Positions 18,702 to 26,486 of a DNA stretch of 64,000 bases are shown one piece after another (positions within the stretch are counted from its first letter, which is position 1; each line of letters begins with the position of its first letter). This DNA is from Chloroflexus sp. Y-396-1 (GTDB lineage: Bacteria > Chloroflexota > Chloroflexia > Chloroflexales > Chloroflexaceae), in contig NZ_KI911784.1 of the NCBI RefSeq assembly GCF_000516515.1, forward strand, positions 868,001-932,000. The letters are read 5' to 3'. The notes beneath the pieces were generated by a model that saw nothing but the letters and a program-made list of their open reading frames with translations, was not told the DNA's origin and did not search any database. Position numbers and translations under genes: made by a program.

Positions 18702-20126
18702 TCACTCCTGTGTTGCCTCAATCGGATGAACTATTCCAATCCACATTGTAGCCTGATTCGGATCGGAGGAGGCAATGTCGGCAGCAACCCGTAATCCTGT
18801 CACCCAAAGAATCCGGTCATGTGCATCAACGAGGAGCGGCCATCGATCACGCAGGCTATGCGGCACCCGCAGATCAACAAACAGATCTTGTAAACGACGA
18901 CGCCCCGGCGCGCCAGACGGTCGCATGCGATCCCCAGGTCGTCGTGTCCGCAGCCGTAAGGGGCCAGATGGTCGTGCAATAAACCCTAACCACCAGCGGT
19001 CTGGCTGGGGCGGCCGATCAGGCTGCACGATACACTGCCAGCCATTCGCCAGCATCACTTCCCCCCATTCGGGCAACGTTACCGGCGCTTCTACCTGCGG
19101 AGCATACTGATACACTGCCCCAGGATGTTGCAGAGTAACGGTTTGTTGATCACATACCAGCAAAACCTGGGGTGTCAGTTGCATCCGCCGACCAGCCTGA
19201 CCACTTAGCAGATGGATTGCGGCGTCTATTTGTGCCAGACTCGGTTCTTCAGCCCCCAGATCGGCAATTGCCCGCCGCAAAGCATACCGACGCAGCGCCG
19301 GGTGTAACGAGCGTAAGGCAGCGCGATCAAAGATAATCAGGTCAGACTGCTGCTCAACGATCAGCATCGGCCACTGCGCTGCAAGAGCTTGTTGGATGAA
19401 ATCGTAGTCTTCGGCGCAGATTCGAGCCGTTCGGTTCAATGCAGCCACAATTTGCGGATTCTCAGCCGTAAGCTGCGGGAGTAGATGGTGCCGAATCCGC
19501 GCTCGTGCGTAGTGAAGATTACGATTCGTCGGATCATCGCGGGGTATCAGGTGATGAGTTGCACAATAGTCGGCCAGTGCTGCCCGACTGATCGCCAGGA
19601 GTGGACGGAGTAACGGCGGACCGCATGATGGCGCACGACCAGCGACAATCAGCGGCGCAGCCCACTCACTCCATTCTACCCGCATTCGCATACCGCGTAA
19701 GCCAGATGGTCCGGCACCACGCAGGAGATGCATCAACACCGTTTCAGCCTGATCGTCAGCCTGATGGGCAACAAGTACGGCATCGACCTGCTCAGCCAAG
19801 GCGGTAGCAGCGAGAAAGGTATACCGAGCAGTCCGTGCCTCAGCCGGTGTTGCCCCCTGTGGAAGGCGAGCGTTGTCGATGATCGCCCGGAGCCCCCAGG
19901 CTGCTGCAACAGAAGCGACAAAATCGGCATCTGCTGCCGACTCGGCCCCGCGCAGACCGTGGTCGAGATGAGCGACAATCGGTATTGGCCCACCAGTAGT
20001 TTGCAGTGTGTAGAGCATGTGCAAGAGCGCTAGCGAATCGCTGCCCCCCGACACTGCAACCAACACCCGATTGGTAGGCTGACCAACACCCTCGGCGAGC
20101 AAGAACTGATGCAACTGATCGAGCAT
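18702..20126 (-). CDS. tilS: tRNA(Ile)-lysidine synthetase
   Basis: Modifies the wobble C of tRNA-Ile(CAU) to lysidine using ATP and lysine, changing its identity from Met to Ile. The N-type ATP pyrophosphatase P-loop is VLVAVSGGSDSLALLHML. Further family motifs are AHLDHGLRG and VLVAHQADDQAETVLMHLLRGAG, and the C-terminal domain carries RRPGDRMRPSGAPGRRRLQD. The ATG at 20126 (MLDQLHQF) is chosen; a GTG at 20168 would run close to the tRNA gene and lacks support. About 474 residues, normal for the long form. It sits directly downstream of a CAT-anticodon tRNA gene, a class of tRNA to which its substrate belongs. Confidence 0.95.
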   Translation of the reverse strand: MLDQLHQFLLAEGVGQPTNRVLVAVSGGSDSLALLHMLYTLQTTGGPIPIVAHLDHGLRGAESAADADFVASVAAAWGLRAIIDNARLPQGATPAEARTARYTFLAATALAEQVDAVLVAHQADDQAETVLMHLLRGAGPSGLRGMRMRVEWSEWAAPLIVAGRAPSCGPPLLRPLLAISRAALADYCATHHLIPRDDPTNRNLHYARARIRHHLLPQLTAENPQIVAALNRTARICAEDYDFIQQALAAQWPMLIVEQQSDLIIFDRAALRSLHPALRRYALRRAIADLGAEEPSLAQIDAAIHLLSGQAGRRMQLTPQVLLVCDQQTVTLQHPGAVYQYAPQVEAPVTLPEWGEVMLANGWQCIVQPDRPPQPDRWWLGFIARPSGPLRLRTRRPGDRMRPSGAPGRRRLQDLFVDLRVPHSLRDRWPLLVDAHDRILWVTGLRVAADIASSDPNQATMWIGIVHPIEATQE

Positions 20127-20176
20127 AGCATCACTCGATGAACGGAAACACCGGTGAGCAAGGCTCACCGGCGACT

Positions 20177-20251
20177 GGTGCCGGAGGCGGGATTCGAACC
20201 CGCGACCTAACGATTATGAGCCGTTTGCTCTACCGCTGAGCTACCCCGGCA
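20177..20251 (-). tRNA. tRNA-Met (CAT anticodon)
   Basis: Complete cloverleaf with encoded CCA. Acceptor GCCGGGG pairs with CTCCGGC (one G-U), then discriminator A and CCA. The D-arm is GCTC...GAGC, the anticodon loop CTCATAA, and the T-arm GCGGG-TTCGAAT-CCCGC. G1-C72 pairing and the lack of three G-C pairs in the anticodon stem argue against initiator Met. Elongator Met is the simple reading, but a tRNA-Ile(CAU) requiring lysidine cannot be excluded, especially beside tilS. Confidence 0.93.
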
Positions 20252-20349
20252 CGGCACTCAAGTGTACCACTGATGAACCAATTAGTCAAGATGGACAATA
20301 AGCGTAATCGTTAGTGAGGCAATGGGACACAATCAATACGCTTGCTCGG

Positions 20350-22079
20350 TATCCTCTCCAAAACTGCTGGGCAGCGGGTGACGGCGGAGCCAAGATCTAG
20401 TAGACTACCAATATATGCAGATACCTGACCTCAACCCCGATAGCATTGCCGATCTGGCAACCCGCCAGATCGTGATCCAGTTGCTGAACGTCATCGAGAC
20501 GCTGGCGGCTGAGAACGTCGTCCTGCGGGTTGAACACCAGAATCTGCGGGATGCGGTGGCACGGCTGAAGGGACGCTCGGGTACGACCGCCATCAAACCA
20601 CCCACGCCGCCCAGCCCGCTGCCTGCGGATCATTCCTCGGAGGCCGAGCGCCGCACGCGCACGCCACGGGGCAAGCCGAAAAAGAACGCGACCCTGATCG
20701 TCACGCACGAGGAGCACTGCGTAGTGGAACCGGCGACCCTGCCCCCGATGCGGTGCGCCATGGGACAACCGATTCCATCGTGCAGCGCCTGCGCATCGAC
20801 GTGGAGGTGATCCGCTTCGTGCGGGAGCGGTGGTCCGTCCCCAGCACCCACACGATCCTCACCGCACCGTTGCCGCCCGGCTCCCGGAGTGGGTTGTGCC
20901 CCACGACCCATCCCATCGTTCCCGCACTCGGTCACGGGGCAACCGTCAGGCAGCCCGCGCTGCGGCGCTTGCTGCGGGATGTCGGTCTGCAGATTGGCAC
21001 GGGTCCGGTGGCACGCATGCTGCAGGATCCGAAGGGACGCTGGGCGGACGAAGCTGCCGCGATTCATCCGCCCGGCCGCGCCACCGGGTCGTGGGTCGCC
21101 ACCGACCAGACCCGTACCCGCGTGGATGGGCAGAACGAGGTCTGCCCCCATGGTGGGCAATGCCTGGTTCACGAGCGATCATCCCCATCCCGAAGGCATG
21201 CGCCGGGATGTCCTGGCGGTCATCTGGGGCCAGGAACTCCGCTATCGCCTCAGGGACGAGTCGCTGGCGTGGCGGCAGGCGCGCAGCCTGCCGCACACCT
21301 TGCTTCGCCAGCTGCGGGACGCCCGGCCCCGCGACACGGCCATGACGGCGGCGGCACGCTAGCAGCACCTGACCACCGCCGGGATCACGCTCACGCAGCA
21401 GCAGGTACAGCCGGTCGGCGATGCACTGGCACGTGCCGCCTATCACGCCCAAACCCAGGCGCCCGTCCTGCGCTGGTTGCTGAGCGATGATGCCCCCGTG
21501 TCTGACCATCTACGACCACCCACGCCCGGTGGTGGGTGCATGAGTGGCGGCATTCCGCCAAGCTTGCCCCACGGGTGCACCATCATCCGGCGGAACGCGC
21601 CGCGGTTGGGGAACGCTCTTGGACGTTCTATCGCGACCTGCTGGCCTATCAACAGGCGCCCACTGAAGCGGAACGTGCACGGTTGGCGGATGCATTTGAC
21701 GCCTTGGTGGACAAAGAGACCGGCTATGCGGCGTTGGATGACCGGATCAGCAAAACCGCCGACAAACGAACCCAGTTGTTGGCGGTGCTGAAACATCCCG
21801 ACCTTCCCCGGCACAAGAATGATATGGAACTGGCGGCATGACGCCGCGTGCGCAAACGCGATGTCAGTTTCGGCCCTCAATCCCGGGACGGGGCACGGGC
21901 GTGGGATACCTTCCAAACTCTGGCCGCCACCGCCGCCAAACTCGGCGTGGGGTTCTTTCCCTATCTCCGCGACCGCATCGTCACGCCGGAGACCACCCCC
22001 ATCGTAGCCGAACGGGTAGTGCAACGGGCGAGTATCGTTGTGCCTTCATCGGCCTGATCCAGCGCTTTTGGAGAGTATA
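20350..22079 (+). mobile_element. Dead IS66-like insertion sequence
   Basis: About 1730 bp bounded by imperfect inverted repeats: TATCCTCTCCAAAACTGCTG at 20350-20369 and the reverse complement of 22060-22079, matching 17 of 20. The interior is clearly richer in GC than the surroundings. No target duplication is visible, and the right end directly abuts a truncated methylase fragment, so the insertion was followed by deletion or rearrangement. Confidence 0.8.
20415..22057 (+). pseudogene. IS66-like transposase, broken by frameshifts and stops
   Basis: The reading can be followed through about 540 codons only by changing frame. It begins with a coiled-coil start (VIQLLNVIETLAAENVVLRV) and the KGRSGTTAIKPPTPPSP hinge. 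A shift near 20745 leads to IVQRLRIDVEVIRFVRERW and a catalytic-type segment GSWVATDQTRTRVDGQNEVC. A shift near 21145 leads to GNAWFTSDHPHPEGMRRDVL. An in-frame TAG lies at 21361, a further shift near 21505 leads to KTADKRTQLLAVLKHPDLPR, and a TGA at 21839 precedes KRDVSFGPQSRDGARAWDTF. At least three frameshifts and two stops rule out function. The organisation and the HKNDMELA-type ending resemble IS66-like transposases; the exact IS family is not certain. Confidence 0.82.
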
Positions 22080-22633
22080 CTCTGCGGCGATATGCTGCTT
22101 GATGAAGTCCGCACCCTGGCCACCGATTTCGCCGTGCGCCAGATACTGCACGAGGGCGGGCAGGCCGCTCGCTCCTACAGCGCCGAAATCAGCGACCGGA
22201 CGCGCTTCTACGTCCTGTGGCGCTGGAACTACGGCGAGGCGTGCGTTCCCTTCAACGAAGCCCGCAAACTGGCCCAATCCTGCGGGCTGGACCTGGCCGA
22301 AGAGTGGTCGCGACGCGGCGGGGTGGTCAAGAAAGAACAGGAATTCGTCCGCCTGTTAGGGCCACATCAGCGCGAGATGGAGCACCTGGCTGCCGGGCAG
22401 GATTTGATAGATGTGCTACATCATGCCCTGCGGCTATGGGAAAAGGGCGATCGCACGGAGCTTATCGCACGCCTGCGTGAGAGCAGCTACGGTCGCAGCG
22501 AAGCCTTCTACCGCGTTGCCCAGGCCATTTCCGAATGTCTGCCCATTGAGAGCAGGGAAAAAAACTGCTGAATGGCCTGCTCACCGGGCGGGCGCGGCTG
22601 CAAGAGGAAATTGGACAAGCAAGATTATTGTAG
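22080..22633 (+). pseudogene. C-terminal fragment of a DUF1156-type adenine DNA methylase
   Basis: The frame begins abruptly at the IS right end and reads VRTLATDFAVRQILHEGGQA, then RTRFYVLWRWNYGEACVPFN, ARKLAQSCGLDLAEEW, FVRLLGPHQRE and SEAFYRVAQAISECLP. This series is what I recall of the C-terminus of the large DUF1156 methylases found in anti-phage loci. The N-terminal catalytic part is gone. A run of seven A near 22557 appears to have lost one base: restoring it continues KLLNGLLTGRARLQEEIGQA to a TAG at 22631, inside the palindrome that precedes the next gene. Remnant of a defence island; not functional. Confidence 0.62.
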
Positions 22634-22655
22634 CACAGGATTAATCCTGTGCTAC
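22630..22655. repeat. Perfect 26-bp palindrome upstream of the RAYT gene
   Basis: Two perfect 13-base arms with no loop, carrying the core GTAGCACAGG and its complement. A half copy (CATCCTGTGCT) follows at 22663-22673. The core is nearly the same as the palindrome in the 40-bp array downstream of the transposase, so these are probably REP targets of the enzyme between them. Confidence 0.9.
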
Positions 22656-22686
22656 AATCTACCATCCTGTGCTAAAGGAGGTTATC

Positions 22687-23331
22687 ATGACCATTTCCTA
22701 CCGTCGCAATCTCCCTCACATTCACCCTTCGGGAGCCATCTTCTTTGTCACTTTTCGGCTGGCCGGGTCGCTGCCGGTGGAGGTTATCGAACGTTTACGC
22801 GAAGAATTCAAAGAAGAGGAGCGACGACTATCCGACTGTTTCAGCGGCGCAGCGTTGCGGAGTGAACGTTACAACGTCCAGAAGAAATTCTTTGGGCGCT
22901 ATGATAAGTGGCTGGACCGCATGGCGCATGGTCCCACCTGGCTGCGCCAGGCGGAAATTGCCCAACTGGTCATGGATGAAATCCGGCGGCTGGATGGCAG
23001 CCATTATGACCTGCTTGCGTGTTGCATCATGCCCAATCATGTTCACTTGCTGGTGGATATGGCGCGTGGTGATGATGCCAATCATGATAAGACGGGGCAC
23101 CCCTCTGTCCTCAGTCAAGCCTTGCACCTGCTCAAAGGGAGCACAGCGCGTTACACCAATCAGAAACTCGGCCGCAGCGGAAAATTCTGGCAGGACGAAA
23201 GTTACGATCACGTTGTGCGCGACGAAGCAGAATTGGAGCGTATTTTCTGGTACATTGTCAACAATCCTGTCAAAGCCGGGTTGGTTTCCGACTGGCAAGA
23301 TTGGCCGTATACATACGTAGCACGGGCTTAA
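22687..23331 (+). CDS. REP-associated tyrosine transposase (RAYT, Y1/HUH family)
   Basis: Single-strand DNA transposase or endonuclease of the IS200/IS605-like Y1 superfamily, 214 residues. The HUH pair is in CCIMPNHVHLLVDM at residues 118-120. The C-terminal family block reads SGKFWQDESYDHVVRDEAEL, then IVNNPVKAGLV. The ATG at 22687 is fixed by AAAGGAGG at 22674-22681. The frame is intact, unlike everything around it. It is flanked by palindromes: a perfect 26-bp one upstream, and an array of 40-bp palindromic units whose first copy contains the gene's own stop codon. RAYTs are thought to mobilise or maintain REP elements. The single intact gene plus its flanking REPs forms a complete candidate system. 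Confidence 0.92.
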   Translation: MTISYRRNLPHIHPSGAIFFVTFRLAGSLPVEVIERLREEFKEEERRLSDCFSGAALRSERYNVQKKFFGRYDKWLDRMAHGPTWLRQAEIAQLVMDEIRRLDGSHYDLLACCIMPNHVHLLVDMARGDDANHDKTGHPSVLSQALHLLKGSTARYTNQKLGRSGKFWQDESYDHVVRDEAELERIFWYIVNNPVKAGLVSDWQDWPYTYVARA

Positions 23332-23547
23332 GCCTGTGCTCCAAATCAAATCATACGTAGCACGGGCTTAAGCCTGTGCTCCAAATCAAATCATACGTAG
23401 CACGGGCTTAAGCCTGTGCTCCAAATCAAATCATACGTAGCACGGGCTTAAGCCTGTGCTCCAAATCAAATCATACGTAGCACGGGCTTAAGCCTGTGCT
23501 CCAAATCAAATCATACGTAGCACGGGCTTAGGCCTGCGCTCCAAATC
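23312..23547. repeat. 40-bp REP array, about six units
   Basis: Units start at 23312, 23352, 23392, 23432 and 23472 and are identical; a sixth, 36 bases long with two changes in its palindrome, starts at 23512. Each carries AGCACGGGCTT followed by its near-complement AAGCCTGTGCT (one G/A mismatch), then a CCAAATCAAAT linker. There are no unique spacers, so it is not CRISPR. The array begins inside the RAYT 3' end and stops exactly where a truncated AlbA_2 reading frame begins. Confidence 0.96.
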
Positions 23548-23868
23548 GGTGTCGAAGACAACGGCAACATTCTGGGATTGGAGAAAGACCTGGAACTGGT
23601 GGGCAATTCACGCAACAAATTCGAGCAATTGCTGGCCAATCTCATCAGTGAATATTTGGGAAGCCGGTATGCTCCGCTTCTGAAGGGGCACTTCGAAGAG
23701 GTAGATGGAAAGACGATCTCTGTCTCTGAAATTCGCCCTTCCCCAGACCTTGTCTATCTCCAAGCCCCCAAAGGGAGCAAAAAGGTAATTCTACGTTCGG
23801 GTTCATACCACCACACGCGATCTCGACCCCTAGGAAACCGCGAAGTACATTCAAAATCACTGGGGTAA
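23548..23868 (+). pseudogene. Fragment of a Schlafen AlbA_2-type domain protein
   Basis: The frame starts at the edge of the REP array with GVEDNGNILGLEKDLEL, continues FEQLLANLISEYLGSRYAPL, and HFEEVDGKTISVSEIRPSPD, then VYLQAPKG. These are characteristic of the second half of AlbA_2 (putative DNA-binding) domains in Schlafen-like and restriction-related proteins. After codon 80 the conserved end is found in another frame (FYVRVHTTTRDLDP, a TAG, then ETAKYIQNHWG), so there is a frameshift plus a stop. The N-terminal half is missing. Decayed remnant, probably of the same defence island as its neighbours. Confidence 0.65.
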
Positions 23869-23914
23869 GACAGGGAGCGGATCGATCACGCCATCTTCTG
23901 AAGCGAGGACAATC

Positions 23915-24097
23915 ATGAAACCCTTTCACACCATTGCCGTTCCACACGATGACATCCTGCCGGACCGTCTGACCCTAGACGTGTTCGCCGCCGACCTGTG
24001 GGAGGTCTATCACGGGCACGGGCCAGAAGAGTACCGCGACCCCGACCTGTTCTTTCAGAAAACGTACCCTACCGAGGGCAGGTCAATCGCGTACTAA
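23915..24097 (+). pseudogene. N-terminal fragment of a DUF499-type ATPase
   Basis: Begins with a good ATG (upstream AAGCGAGGAC) and reads KPFHTIAVPHDDILPDRLTL, then DVFAADLWEVYHGHGPEEYR, DPDLFFQKTYPTEG, which matches my memory of the N-terminus of DUF499 anti-phage-associated AAA+ proteins (typically about 1000 residues). The match stops at codon 55; the remaining six codons are unrelated and end in TAA. The Walker A region that should follow is absent. DUF499 ATPases are usually encoded beside DUF1156 methylases, which supports both identifications. Confidence 0.6.
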
Positions 24098-24151
24098 GCA
24101 AACAGTGGCGAGATGATGCGGAGCAGATAATTCTGGTCCCAGCCTGCTCTG

Positions 24152-25044
24152 AGAAAGTGTCTGAAATGTATCTGGTCGAGGGTTTTGATGGATACGTAAT
24201 GGTACGAGCGAACAGCACGGACGAACATCGTATCCTACCGACTGTACAGACGCCGAATGGCAACGGATTGCCCCCTCTCTGCCGGAACGGACGTCACCTC
24301 GGGCGCTACACCGCGTCCATGCATACCGAGAGATGTTGAACGCTATCTTCTCCGTCTTGCGCAGTGGGTGCGCCTGGCGGATGCGTCCCCACGACGTGCC
24401 ACCCTGGCAGACCGTGTCTCATTCCTTTCGGCGCTGGCAACGGGATGGAACCTGGATGCGCATCCAAGACGCCCTCCGCACGGACGGACGAGGTGCTGAA
24501 GGGCGAGCGGCAGAACCGAGCGCTGCGATTCTGGATAGCCAGTCGGTCAAAACGACGGAAAACGGGGGCCGCGGGGGGATAATGCTGGCAAAACCGTCCA
24601 CAGGCGCACACGCCATCTACTGGTGGATACCCTGGGTTTAGTTTAGTGTCGACCGTGGTGGTTCATGCCGCCGATAGACAAGACCGGGACGGGGCACGGT
24701 TGGTGGTGGGCAGCGCCCACGGGAAGCAGTCGCACGTGCGGGTGATGTGGGCCGATGGGGGCGATGCTGGTCAGTTGGTGGAATGGGCGCAGCACTTTGG
24801 TGGCTGGAACCTGGACAGCAGCAAGCGTCCCACTAGAGCATCGCGCTTCCGGGTGGTGCCGAAGCGCTAGGTGGTGGAACGGACGTTTGCCTGGCTGGGG
24901 AAGTATCGTCGCTTGCGTAAAGACGACGACGCACGCACCGCTACCAGCGAAGCTCTGATGTACGCCGCCATGATACCCGTGATGGTCAGACGTTTGACCC
25001 ATATCCATGCCAACGACTCTTCATAGAATGTTCAGATACTCCCT
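24152..25044 (+). mobile_element. Dead IS5-like insertion sequence
   Basis: About 890 bp. Ends AGAAAGTGTCTGAAATGT (24152-24169) and the reverse complement of 25027-25044 match at 12 of 18, with a shared GT/AT-CTGAA core typical of IS5-group ends. Contains the broken transposase described separately. The left end lies about 70 bases after the DUF499 fragment; 24098-24150 is unassigned. Confidence 0.65.
24231..25026 (+). pseudogene. IS5-family transposase, broken
   Basis: Readable as a typical IS5-type DDE transposase only across three frames. Frame one: YPTDCTDAEWQRIAPSLPER, EMLNAIFSVLRSGCAWRMRP, HDVPPWQTVSHSFRRWQRDG and ILDSQSVKTTENGG. A shift near 24575 gives NAGKTVHRRTRHLLVDTLGL with a TAG. 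Another near 24645 gives VVVHAADRQDRDGARLVV, VMWADGGDAGQLVEW, an in-frame TAG, then VVERTFAWLGKYRRLRKDDD and EALMYAAMIPVMVRRL. The catalytic Asp/Asp/Glu positions are still recognisable (DSQS, WADGG, VVERTF) but two frameshifts and two stops make it inactive. Confidence 0.85.
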
Positions 25045-25188
25045 AAACAAGAGCAATATTGGTCAATGGGCGGACGTGCCGGTCTATGCTTAGGGTGGTA
25101 TGTTCGTGACACCATCGGGTTATGGGTACAGTGACGTACCAGGTGCGTAAGGAAGGGAGCGACAAGTATTATATCGCTTTTAACTCTT

Positions 25189-25223
25189 GACCCTTCCTCT
25201 CTCAAAATGAAAGAGGAAGGGTC
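25189..25223 (+). terminator. Rho-independent terminator-like hairpin
   Basis: Perfect 12-base arms (GACCCTTCCTCT at 25189-25200, complement at 25212-25223) with an 11-base loop, followed on the plus strand by AGAATTTTTCC. It would stop plus-strand read-through from the mobile region before the convergent sigma gene. On the minus strand there is no T-run. Confidence 0.7.
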
Positions 25224-25306
25224 AGAATTTTTCCAACGTGCTCAGCTTATGAATATGAGCGATGAAAGTGGAGGTAAATGACAGCGCATCAATGAACCAA
25301 CACTAC

Positions 25307-26344
25307 TCATTCCAAATAATCGCGCAAATGCTGACCAACCTCTGGACTACGCAATCGTCGTAGCGCTTCGGCTTCGATCTGCCGTGCCCGTTCACGGGTC
25401 ATACCGAGTGCTCGGCCAACTTCTTCCAGCGTTCGACGGCGACCGTCCAGGAGACCGTAGCGCAAATCGATGATTCGCCGTTCGCGGTCGTTGAGCTGGT
25501 CGAGGGCTGCCCAGAGATCACGACGTAGCAGCTTTTGCGCCGCTATTTCACCGGGTGTAGGCAGTTCTTCGTCGGTCAGAAAGTCGCCAAGTGTATGCTC
25601 ACCATCATCACCGACCGGTGTTTCGAGGGAAACCGGTCGCCGTGACGCTTCGAGGATACGCTCAATCCGTTCGACCGGCTGACCAAGCGCCATCGCAATC
25701 TCTTCTGCGGTGGGTTGGCGTTCGAGCGATTGAGCAAGACGCTCAGCGATCCGCTTCACCTGACCAACCGACTCGCTCATATGCACCGGTAGCCGGATTG
25801 TGCGCCCTTGCTCGGCCAGTGCTCGCGTTACCGCTTGGCGTATCCACCACGTGGCATACGTGCTGAAGCGGTTACCTTTGTGGTAATCAAACTTCTCAAC
25901 TGCCCGCATCAACCCAATATTCCCTTCCTGGATTAGATCGAGCAGGGCCAGACCGCGACCAACGTACTTCTTGGCAATACTGACTACCAGACGCAGATTT
26001 GCCTGAATTAAATGGCGGCGAGCCTCTTGACCACGCTGAACGGCCTGAAGTAATTCGTAGCGTTCTTGTGGGGTCAGATCAACGGCACTGTTCAGACGTG
26101 CTTCTGCCTCATTCCCACGCTCGATCTGTTCGGCTAACTCAACCTCTTCAGCAGCGGTTAGTAACGCAACACGCCCGATCTCTTGCAAATAGTGTTGCAC
26201 GGCATCGAGTGTCGGTTCTGCCCTATCAATATCACTTAGATCGGGAGAAAACAGTGTTTCTTCGTGCCCAAAACATTCATCGTGCTCGTGGGTATAGAGC
26301 GATATCTCTTCTTTTTCCCAGCTTGATGGTCGACGCTTGAGCAT
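25307..26344 (-). CDS. RNA polymerase sigma factor, RpoD/SigA family
   Basis: Primary-type sigma-70 factor of 345 residues without a long region 1.1. Region 1.2 reads [20 protein letters not shown]. Region 2 includes [38 protein letters not shown] and [20 protein letters not shown], the core and -10 recognition helices. Region 3 spans [15 protein letters not shown]. Region 4 has [13 protein letters not shown] and the helix-turn-helix [20 protein letters not shown]. The ATG at 26344 has AGGAG nine bases upstream; a start at 26434 is less likely. It has its own near-consensus promoter and a 165-base leader. Chloroflexi carry several RpoD paralogues, so whether this is the housekeeping one is open; the short N-terminus suggests a SigA-like or group 2 factor. 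Confidence 0.93.
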
Positions 26345-26486
26345 TGGTGGGCACTCCTGCCTAACTATGCAACCAAGGGACAAAACAGCAAATTTCTCCG
26401 CCATTGCGGAGACGCCACCAGAGGCACCCAGCACGTAACGAAACGGGGTAACGTGTGAGGTGTGAACCGTCGAGGATGTGACGGTT

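Follow-up and report, generated by a model that had tools for sequence, protein, structure and literature searches.

The Hma system, defined in PADLOC by the proteins HmaA, HmaB and HmaC, corresponds to the Type-1 DUF499-centred BREX-related (BR) systems of PMC12839542, where the proposal for an intact system is that HmaB labels self DNA, the scanning DUF499 ATPase puts a complex together, and a helicase-nuclease cuts. REP-associated tyrosine transposases (RAYTs, or TnpA-REP) are described as domesticated transposases (PMC8266576) that form, with their repetitive extragenic palindromes (REPs), the unit called the REPtron (PMC6006769, PMC8266576); all three sources are cited here for their accessible text. 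We analyzed a locus at which the two meet, in a window of 64,000 nucleotides from Chloroflexus sp. Y-396-1 (positions 868001-932000 of a 4,890,986-base single-contig genome). Coordinates are those of the window unless prefixed, and genomes and fetched loci are cited by G and L numbers. A stretch of about 5 kb between a tRNA-Met gene, with tilS beyond it, and a sigma-70 gene holds broken pieces and one intact gene. This locus is very probably the wreck of an Hma, or DUF499-centred BR, operon of the AlbA_2-HmaC type with a hitchhiking RAYT, and some such RAYTs would have become fixed as a methylase domain.

Like the Hma/BR systems, the locus combines a DUF1156 methylase with a DUF499 ATPase in one operon, and in relatives (L043, L090, L092, L097, L099, L101) an SNF2-type helicase lies upstream of them. 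Unlike the published systems, the window copy is dead, its HmaC has AlbA_2 where those systems have HEPN, and a RAYT lies in the operon or the methylase; the words “transposase,” “HUH,” and “RAYT” do not occur in the main text of PMC12839542 as accessible. No HmaA (SNF2-type helicase) was found in the insert, though relatives have one, and thus the window locus is a remnant rather than a member of the Hma/BR group. The HmaA-profile matches in the window's genome sit elsewhere, and this profile also matches 14 of 14 control genomes. The likeness of one HmaC (L041) to BREX BrxC is weak (PADLOC, E 4e-9), HmaC being the far better match (E 2e-118). The RAYT shares with published REPtrons a HuH-Y core and GTAG-footed palindromes on both sides, but differs from those described in the accessible text in that its palindrome pattern occurs at one place in the genome and in that the relatives' domain lies in frame inside DNA methylases.

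Results

Broken Pieces of One Operon

The first fragment (22081..22633, + strand) preserves the 3′ end of a DUF1156 methylase gene, HmaB, whose N-terminal part is gone at the end of an IS66-family element. Its reading frame, followed from 22092 to 22571, breaks near 22560 and goes on in another frame as far as the TAG stop (22631-22633). The fragment comprises the C-terminal ∼180 residues of HmaB; the DUF1156 and catalytic part are absent. Alone, it gave no significant match in Pfam, NCBIfam (best E 0.15), or PADLOC, and no match in a tblastn search of plasmids. Its identity to HmaB proteins is 84% in L090, 77% in G036, 69% in G030, and 66% in G006, where the locus is a 3,956-base contig of coverage 0.85 in a metagenome-assembled genome and may be contamination. 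The G030 relative contains DUF1156 (PF06634, E 1e-21), scores as HmaB in PADLOC (E 4e-122), and lies between an upstream HmaA-type helicase and a downstream DUF499 HmaC. We found 18 related loci with the family of fragment 1, including the G036 and G006 loci again (L091 and L100) and two without visible HmaC (L095 and L106); L090 recurs as L174 in the HmaC survey described below.

Fragments 2 and 3 belong to one AlbA_2-DUF499 (HmaC) fusion gene (23539..24079, + strand), because relatives have a single frame and the window's second frame continues from the AlbA_2 tail into the start of DUF499, with in-frame stops confined to the AlbA_2 part. About 53 codons are missing at the start, the frame breaks near 23780, and DUF499 is cut after its first ∼55 residues, so that the ATPase core is absent. 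Fragment 2 matches SLFN_AlbA_2 below the gathering score (E 0.0023), and its identity to the corresponding part of the L101 protein is 60%. Pfam gave no match for fragment 3, but PADLOC identifies it as HmaC (E 6e-15, profile positions 3-57 of 941), and it is 89% identical to the HmaC start of L090, the same locus whose HmaB is 84% identical to fragment 1 and in which HmaB and HmaC lie in the window's order on one strand. Five relatives (L093, L099, L101, L105, L107) have an unbroken HmaB followed by AlbA_2 (SLFN_AlbA_2, E 1e-19 to 2e-21) and DUF499 in one open frame of ∼1030-1050 aa, both above Pfam cut-offs; PADLOC scored the L105 fusion as HmaC (E 2e-120), and L103 looks alike with a broken frame. 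No AlbA_2-DUF499 fusion occurred among the 100 HmaC regions fetched in our survey (from 114 of 400 genomes, hand-picked, mostly with an HmaC N-terminus, others omitted). HEPN-DUF499 fusions and separate Schlafen genes are described in the accessible text of PMC12839542, and no paper on AlbA_2 with DUF499 was found in the searchable literature, which covers neither preprints nor most subscription papers.

An earlier, sequence-only reading had taken the pieces for one broken DUF1156/DUF499 anti-phage locus, on the argument that the two tentative identifications support each other. That logic was right, as two fragments match one locus (L090) in the same order and strand and relatives preserve the unbroken order. 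The HmaB end it named was borne out, whereas the AlbA_2 and DUF499 pieces it kept separate are one fused gene in relatives. The Pfam search it proposed returned only the sub-threshold AlbA_2 match, and for fragment 3 the identification came from PADLOC instead.

AlbA_2 modules also appear elsewhere among the fetched loci. In L093 (601-5820) two adjoin, a GmrSD_N protein ending in AlbA_2 being followed by the AlbA_2-DUF499 ATPase, and AlbA_2 stands at the end of long frames in L130, L159, and L160.

The Window RAYT and Its REPs

The only intact gene between the ruins, as the sequence-only reading had recognized, is a RAYT of 214 aa (22687..23331, + strand; NF047646, E 3e-25), identified by Pfam and NCBIfam searches and by alignment. 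Two HuH histidines, a tyrosine, and an asparagine four residues later are invariant in alignment A2 (eight rows, five of them fused RAYTs). These catalytic residues align with those of the best solved relative, the TnpA-REP of PDB 4er8, their roles being taken from the accessible text of PMC6006769 and PMC8266576. On the left stands a perfect 32-nt palindrome (22627..22658), and on the right a tandem array of six 40-bp units (23312..23547), each with a GTAG-footed palindrome and the last diverged; neither is assigned to a strand. With two mismatches allowed, the REP pattern was read 7 times forward and 6 times in reverse in the 4.89 Mb genome, always at this locus (control 0). The left REP has its GTAG foot (22630-22633) on the last bases of HmaB (TTG TAG), the stop codon included. 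L090, which has no RAYT there, ends in TTG TAG at the same point of HmaB, and in L096, which carries a RAYT of another subfamily, TTG TAG runs into that locus's own palindrome.

The nearest kin of the window RAYT in the tree is a REP-flanked RAYT of G005 (81% identical; ratio of nonsynonymous to synonymous differences, pN/pS, 0.18). Membership of the window RAYT in the lineage fused to methylases was ruled out by the tree, where it groups with free, REP-flanked RAYTs. A RAYT profile search gave at least 37 matches with E <1e-50. Seven of these belonged to the query alignment and rank high by construction: the window RAYT, five in-frame fusions, and a RAYT from an Hma operon. Two of the other 30 (L048/L216 and G118:C38) are close to or among the query rows. 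We checked the neighbors of these RAYTs for Hma proteins and for one Eco57I-type methylase with its helicase, in regions several of which are cut early at contig ends. L231 is the sole one of the 30 beside an Eco57I-like methylase among the matches listed, and none of 10 RAYTs of other subfamilies lies beside an Eco57I-type methylase or Hma gene. At L231 (5983-10390), the window-subfamily RAYT is directly downstream of the methylase, and a helicase-like frame lies upstream.

RAYTs Inside the Hma Operons of Relatives

A RAYT lies between HmaB and HmaC in four of the 18 related loci (L096, L101, L103, L104, with L101 and L103 near-identical). These RAYTs belong to subfamilies other than the window's and match NF047646 with E 1e-13 to 3e-18 and 51 to 66 bits, below both its cut-off (80 bits) and the Pfam gathering score. 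In the 100 surveyed HmaC regions, each of the five RAYTs found is inside the operon. HmaB itself holds three of them in frame (L108, L205, L207), and the other two (L153 and L204) separate HmaA from HmaB; PADLOC identifies the helicase and methylase of L153 and L204/L211 as HmaA and HmaB. Four profiles built here found no RAYT in the flanks of the same regions. A sixth case, in G349, is not covered by the survey region fetched there and comes from L208.

The 114 HmaC-bearing genomes hold 187 NF047646 matches in 471 Mb (rounded sizes), a background from which 0.44 RAYTs would be expected in 1.1 Mb of operon (11 kb per operon assumed), versus the five found. The corresponding probability is ∼1e-4 for five events and 1e-3 for four, or 3e-4 and 3e-3 at 14 kb per operon. 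Hma operons are thus richer in RAYTs than expected from the RAYT density of these genomes.

RAYT Domains in Frame Inside Methylases

Four HmaB methylases (L108, L205, L207, L208) and one Eco57I-type methylase (L209) hold an in-frame RAYT domain; they are the five of the RAYT matches listed with an open frame longer than 600 aa. Frames between 400 and 600 aa were examined in part, and a 509-aa frame around the RAYT of G118:C38 was judged by eye to be a frame overlap rather than a fusion. In L108 (G018), L205 (G007, of the window's genus), and L207 (G233), the RAYT sits in the HmaB linker between the PPVNP and GLxAD(V/I)xYYG motifs, and in L208 (G349) this linker is uninterrupted and the RAYT occupies a second one. 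DUF1156 and Y1_Tnp or REP_Tyr_transpos were scored in one protein (Pfam or NCBIfam). The fused G007 protein is recognized by PADLOC as HmaB (E 8e-293), and the RAYT of L208 scores 76 bits against the NF047646 cut-off of 80. No palindromes were found beside the domain in L205, L207, and L208; in L108 a perfect 27-nt hairpin stands ∼0.5 kb away from the RAYT.

In the G018/G007 pair (L108/L205), the RAYT domains share 74% aa identity versus 55% for the host methylases, and pN/pS is 0.18 versus 0.42, with synonymous differences near saturation (pS 0.83 and 0.74). Across 168 overlapping host windows of 182 codons, pN was always higher than in the RAYT domain, and the domain's pN/pS equaled or exceeded the host's in 0 of 2000 bootstrap replicates. 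The one free RAYT pair that was measured has a pN/pS of 0.18, equal to that of the fused pair. Fused HmaB is rare (three among 70 survey loci with an HmaB frame of at least 800 aa), and 28 of the 30 plasmid matches listed, of 187 records, span 2.7-2.9 kb, too short for the insert; the other two are annotated with a transposase. The fused RAYTs do not form one exclusive clade: G018/G007 have the free RAYTs L215 and L217 as neighbors, and the partner of G233 is G349, in which the insert sits elsewhere in HmaB. The presence of free RAYTs among fused ones suggests that the fusions arose by several insertions.

Three further observations concern these methylases. In L209 (6832-11493; G097), the in-frame RAYT of the Eco57I-type methylase is bracketed on both sides by GTAG palindromes, and it looks like an insertion on its way to becoming a domain. 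In L205 (10518-17664; G007), two DUF1156 methylases stand in tandem, the downstream one fused to the RAYT and the upstream one without a Y1_Tnp match; no helicase was identified in that stretch. The G030 HmaB (L043:14128-17487) carries in-frame repeat peptides (NRTRIHTDVTGEHGL type) in its linkers, one of them at the position that the RAYT occupies in other HmaBs, and these may be translated palindromic repeats.

Flanks, Insertion Sequences, and Related Sites

The insert is flanked on the left by the tRNA-Met gene (20176..20250, − strand; ARAGORN) and then tilS (18702-20168, − strand; TilS domains), and on the right by the sigma-70 factor gene (25307..26434, − strand; Sigma70 regions 1.2, 2, 3, and 4). 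The 3′ end of the tRNA gene faces away from the insert, which lies on its 5′ side, and tRNA-Met was ruled out as the integration site. The gaps at 24076-24160, 25040-25310, and 20250-20350 gave no match to frames of the fetched Hma loci.

Two dead insertion sequences bracket the fragments, as the sequence-only reading had claimed; its left limit of 22080 fell short, the insert reaching to 20349. The left element is of the IS66 family (20349..22080, + strand), has 22-nt inverted ends (20349-20370 and 22059-22080), contains only short broken frames, and shows no match between the 8 bases on either side. Two copies in G030 match it at 93.5-93.6% identity and have open frames of 559 aa; one of these copies was scanned and matches DDE_Tnp_IS66 (E 9e-9). 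G030 belongs to another family of the same order as the window's genome, and an identity of ∼93.5% at that distance suggests a fairly recent exchange of the element. The right element consists of two pieces of a broken IS5-family transposase (24333..24870, + strand; DUF4096 and transpos_IS5_3 in profile searches); a search for its ends found no inverted repeat matching at 15 of 20 positions.

An intact island at the same locus in another genome, for which the earlier reading had advised looking, was not found among the related genomes G001-G007, three of them uninformative (G002 and G006 have the flanks on separate contigs, and G007 has an unplaced right flank). In G003, of the same genus, the aligned tRNA-Met-side and sigma-side ends are 458 bp apart without the island; in G001, G004, and G005 tens of kilobases separate the flanks. 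The empty site of G003 (L044:3260-3300, − strand) contains a 16-nt stretch like the window's IS66 end (GTATCCTCTCTAAAAC), a scar or chance.

By profile, the window's genome has no HmaB anywhere. Its only other HmaC (G000:C1:597799-599265; L040:9800-11266) is a HEPN_Swt1-DUF499 protein that ends after HmaC profile position 280. With no HmaB and the other HmaC truncated, the genome seems to have two Hma ruins but no intact system. Full-length HmaC genes are present in G003 and G007.

Discussion

The operon behind this wreck would have consisted of an HmaA helicase, as in relatives, the DUF1156 adenine methylase HmaB, and an HmaC ATPase with an N-terminal Schlafen AlbA_2 domain, which by analogy with the published HEPN-DUF499 fusions may be a last-resort RNase. 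The RAYT is a REPtron that joined the Hma operon at the end of HmaB, before or after decay, and its REP-flanked unit starts precisely where HmaB has its stop codon. Up to the IS66 element, HmaA and the greater part of HmaB are missing, as is most of HmaC on the right, the order of these losses being inferred; the RAYT probably kept its frame through this decay because it does not depend on the operon. In the Hma operons of relatives, RAYTs stand at gene ends or in frame in methylase linkers. Most likely, RAYTs hitchhike in mobile defence operons at gene-sparing sites, and some have been fixed as a methylase domain.

Several points weigh against this account. No fragment reaches the Pfam gathering score for DUF1156, AlbA_2, or DUF499, and their assignment rests on relatives and PADLOC. 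That they are chance resemblances rather than parts of one former operon has nonetheless a negligible probability: each is weak or silent in Pfam when taken alone, but such an origin is refuted by a single locus that matches fragment 1 at 84% and fragment 3 at 89% identity in the same order and strand. The excess of RAYTs in Hma operons has limits of its own: the counts are not independent, as three of the five survey RAYTs are fusions at one linker and may share descent, leaving fewer events, and among the matches listed, 29 of the 30 other window-subfamily RAYTs have no Hma gene or tested Eco57I-type methylase nearby. GTAG is found at the HmaB stop in only two of the 18 related loci (L090 and L096), and the RAYT-bearing L101, L103, and L104 lack it. 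Since, in the accessible text of PMC8266576, TnpA-REP cleaves at CT near the REP and GTAG serves as a recognition or guide motif, the GTAG common to REP and HmaB stop may be a coincidence or microhomology rather than a target. Both the CT cleavage and the three loci without GTAG weaken a transposition target at the stop codon, and we keep the shared GTAG as an observation. Finally, the right side of the RAYT unit occupies the place of the first ∼53 codons of AlbA_2-HmaC, an arrangement incompatible with a working HmaC.

This replacement of coding sequence is what one would expect if the RAYT landed in the non-coding remains of an island that had died before, as the earlier reading had it, and the RAYT's standing as sole intact gene with a REP pattern confined to this locus agrees. 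We consider such a late landing rather improbable. In L096, L101, L103, and L104 the slot between HmaB and HmaC is likewise taken by RAYTs, of other subfamilies, and the left REP of the window begins right at the HmaB stop, where it leaves HmaB unharmed. Because relatives' RAYTs occupy this slot and lie in frame inside HmaB, the window RAYT may predate the decay; the loss of a defence island stands, and the RAYT's arrival on an island already lost is not established. A different possibility is that Hma-type systems have recruited the RAYT as a working part, with a HuH nuclease and hairpin-binding core acting on single-stranded or hairpin DNA beside or inside the methylase, and that the window RAYT is a surviving accessory gene. 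The in-frame domains of the four HmaB and one Eco57I-type methylases speak for recruitment, as do their invariant HuH, Tyr, and Asn residues aligned with 4er8, the stronger conservation of the domain than of its host in G018/G007 (at near-saturated synonymous differences), the lack of palindromes found beside it in L205, L207, and L208, and the survey's five RAYTs inside the operon with none found outside. Yet fusions are rare (3/70) and 28 of the 30 listed plasmid matches have no room for the insert; the window RAYT groups with free, REP-flanked RAYTs and the fused ones form no exclusive clade; the free pair has an equal pN/pS; GTAG palindromes flank the L209 domain and a hairpin lies near that of L108, as after simple insertion; most listed RAYTs of the window's subfamily lack the tested neighbors; and the second DUF1156 methylase of G007 could cover for the fused one. 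Recruitment is thus unlikely, and we are equally doubtful of its general form, in which RAYTs were repeatedly captured by anti-phage adenine methylases and kept, as an operon gene or in-frame domain, for use as a HuH single-strand or hairpin nuclease or a target-recognition module. Hitchhiking with occasional fixation is favored over recruitment as a defence module.

The ruin itself is ordinary: a defence operon lost between dead insertion sequences is a normal sight. The literature searched yielded neither RAYT-methylase fusions nor the AlbA_2-DUF499 ATPase, and among the papers listed from searchable sources, which leave aside preprints and most subscription papers, none was described as linking RAYTs with defence islands or methyltransferases. 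As a counterpart of the published HEPN-DUF499, AlbA_2-DUF499 would extend the idea of a built-in last-resort RNase. The RAYT-Hma partnership may be older than this wreck. RAYT domains with all catalytic residues sit in frame inside defence methylases, and the fused forms make a defence role directly testable. The benefit of RAYTs to their hosts is a standing puzzle; if true, their capture by defence methylases would give RAYTs a role in defence.

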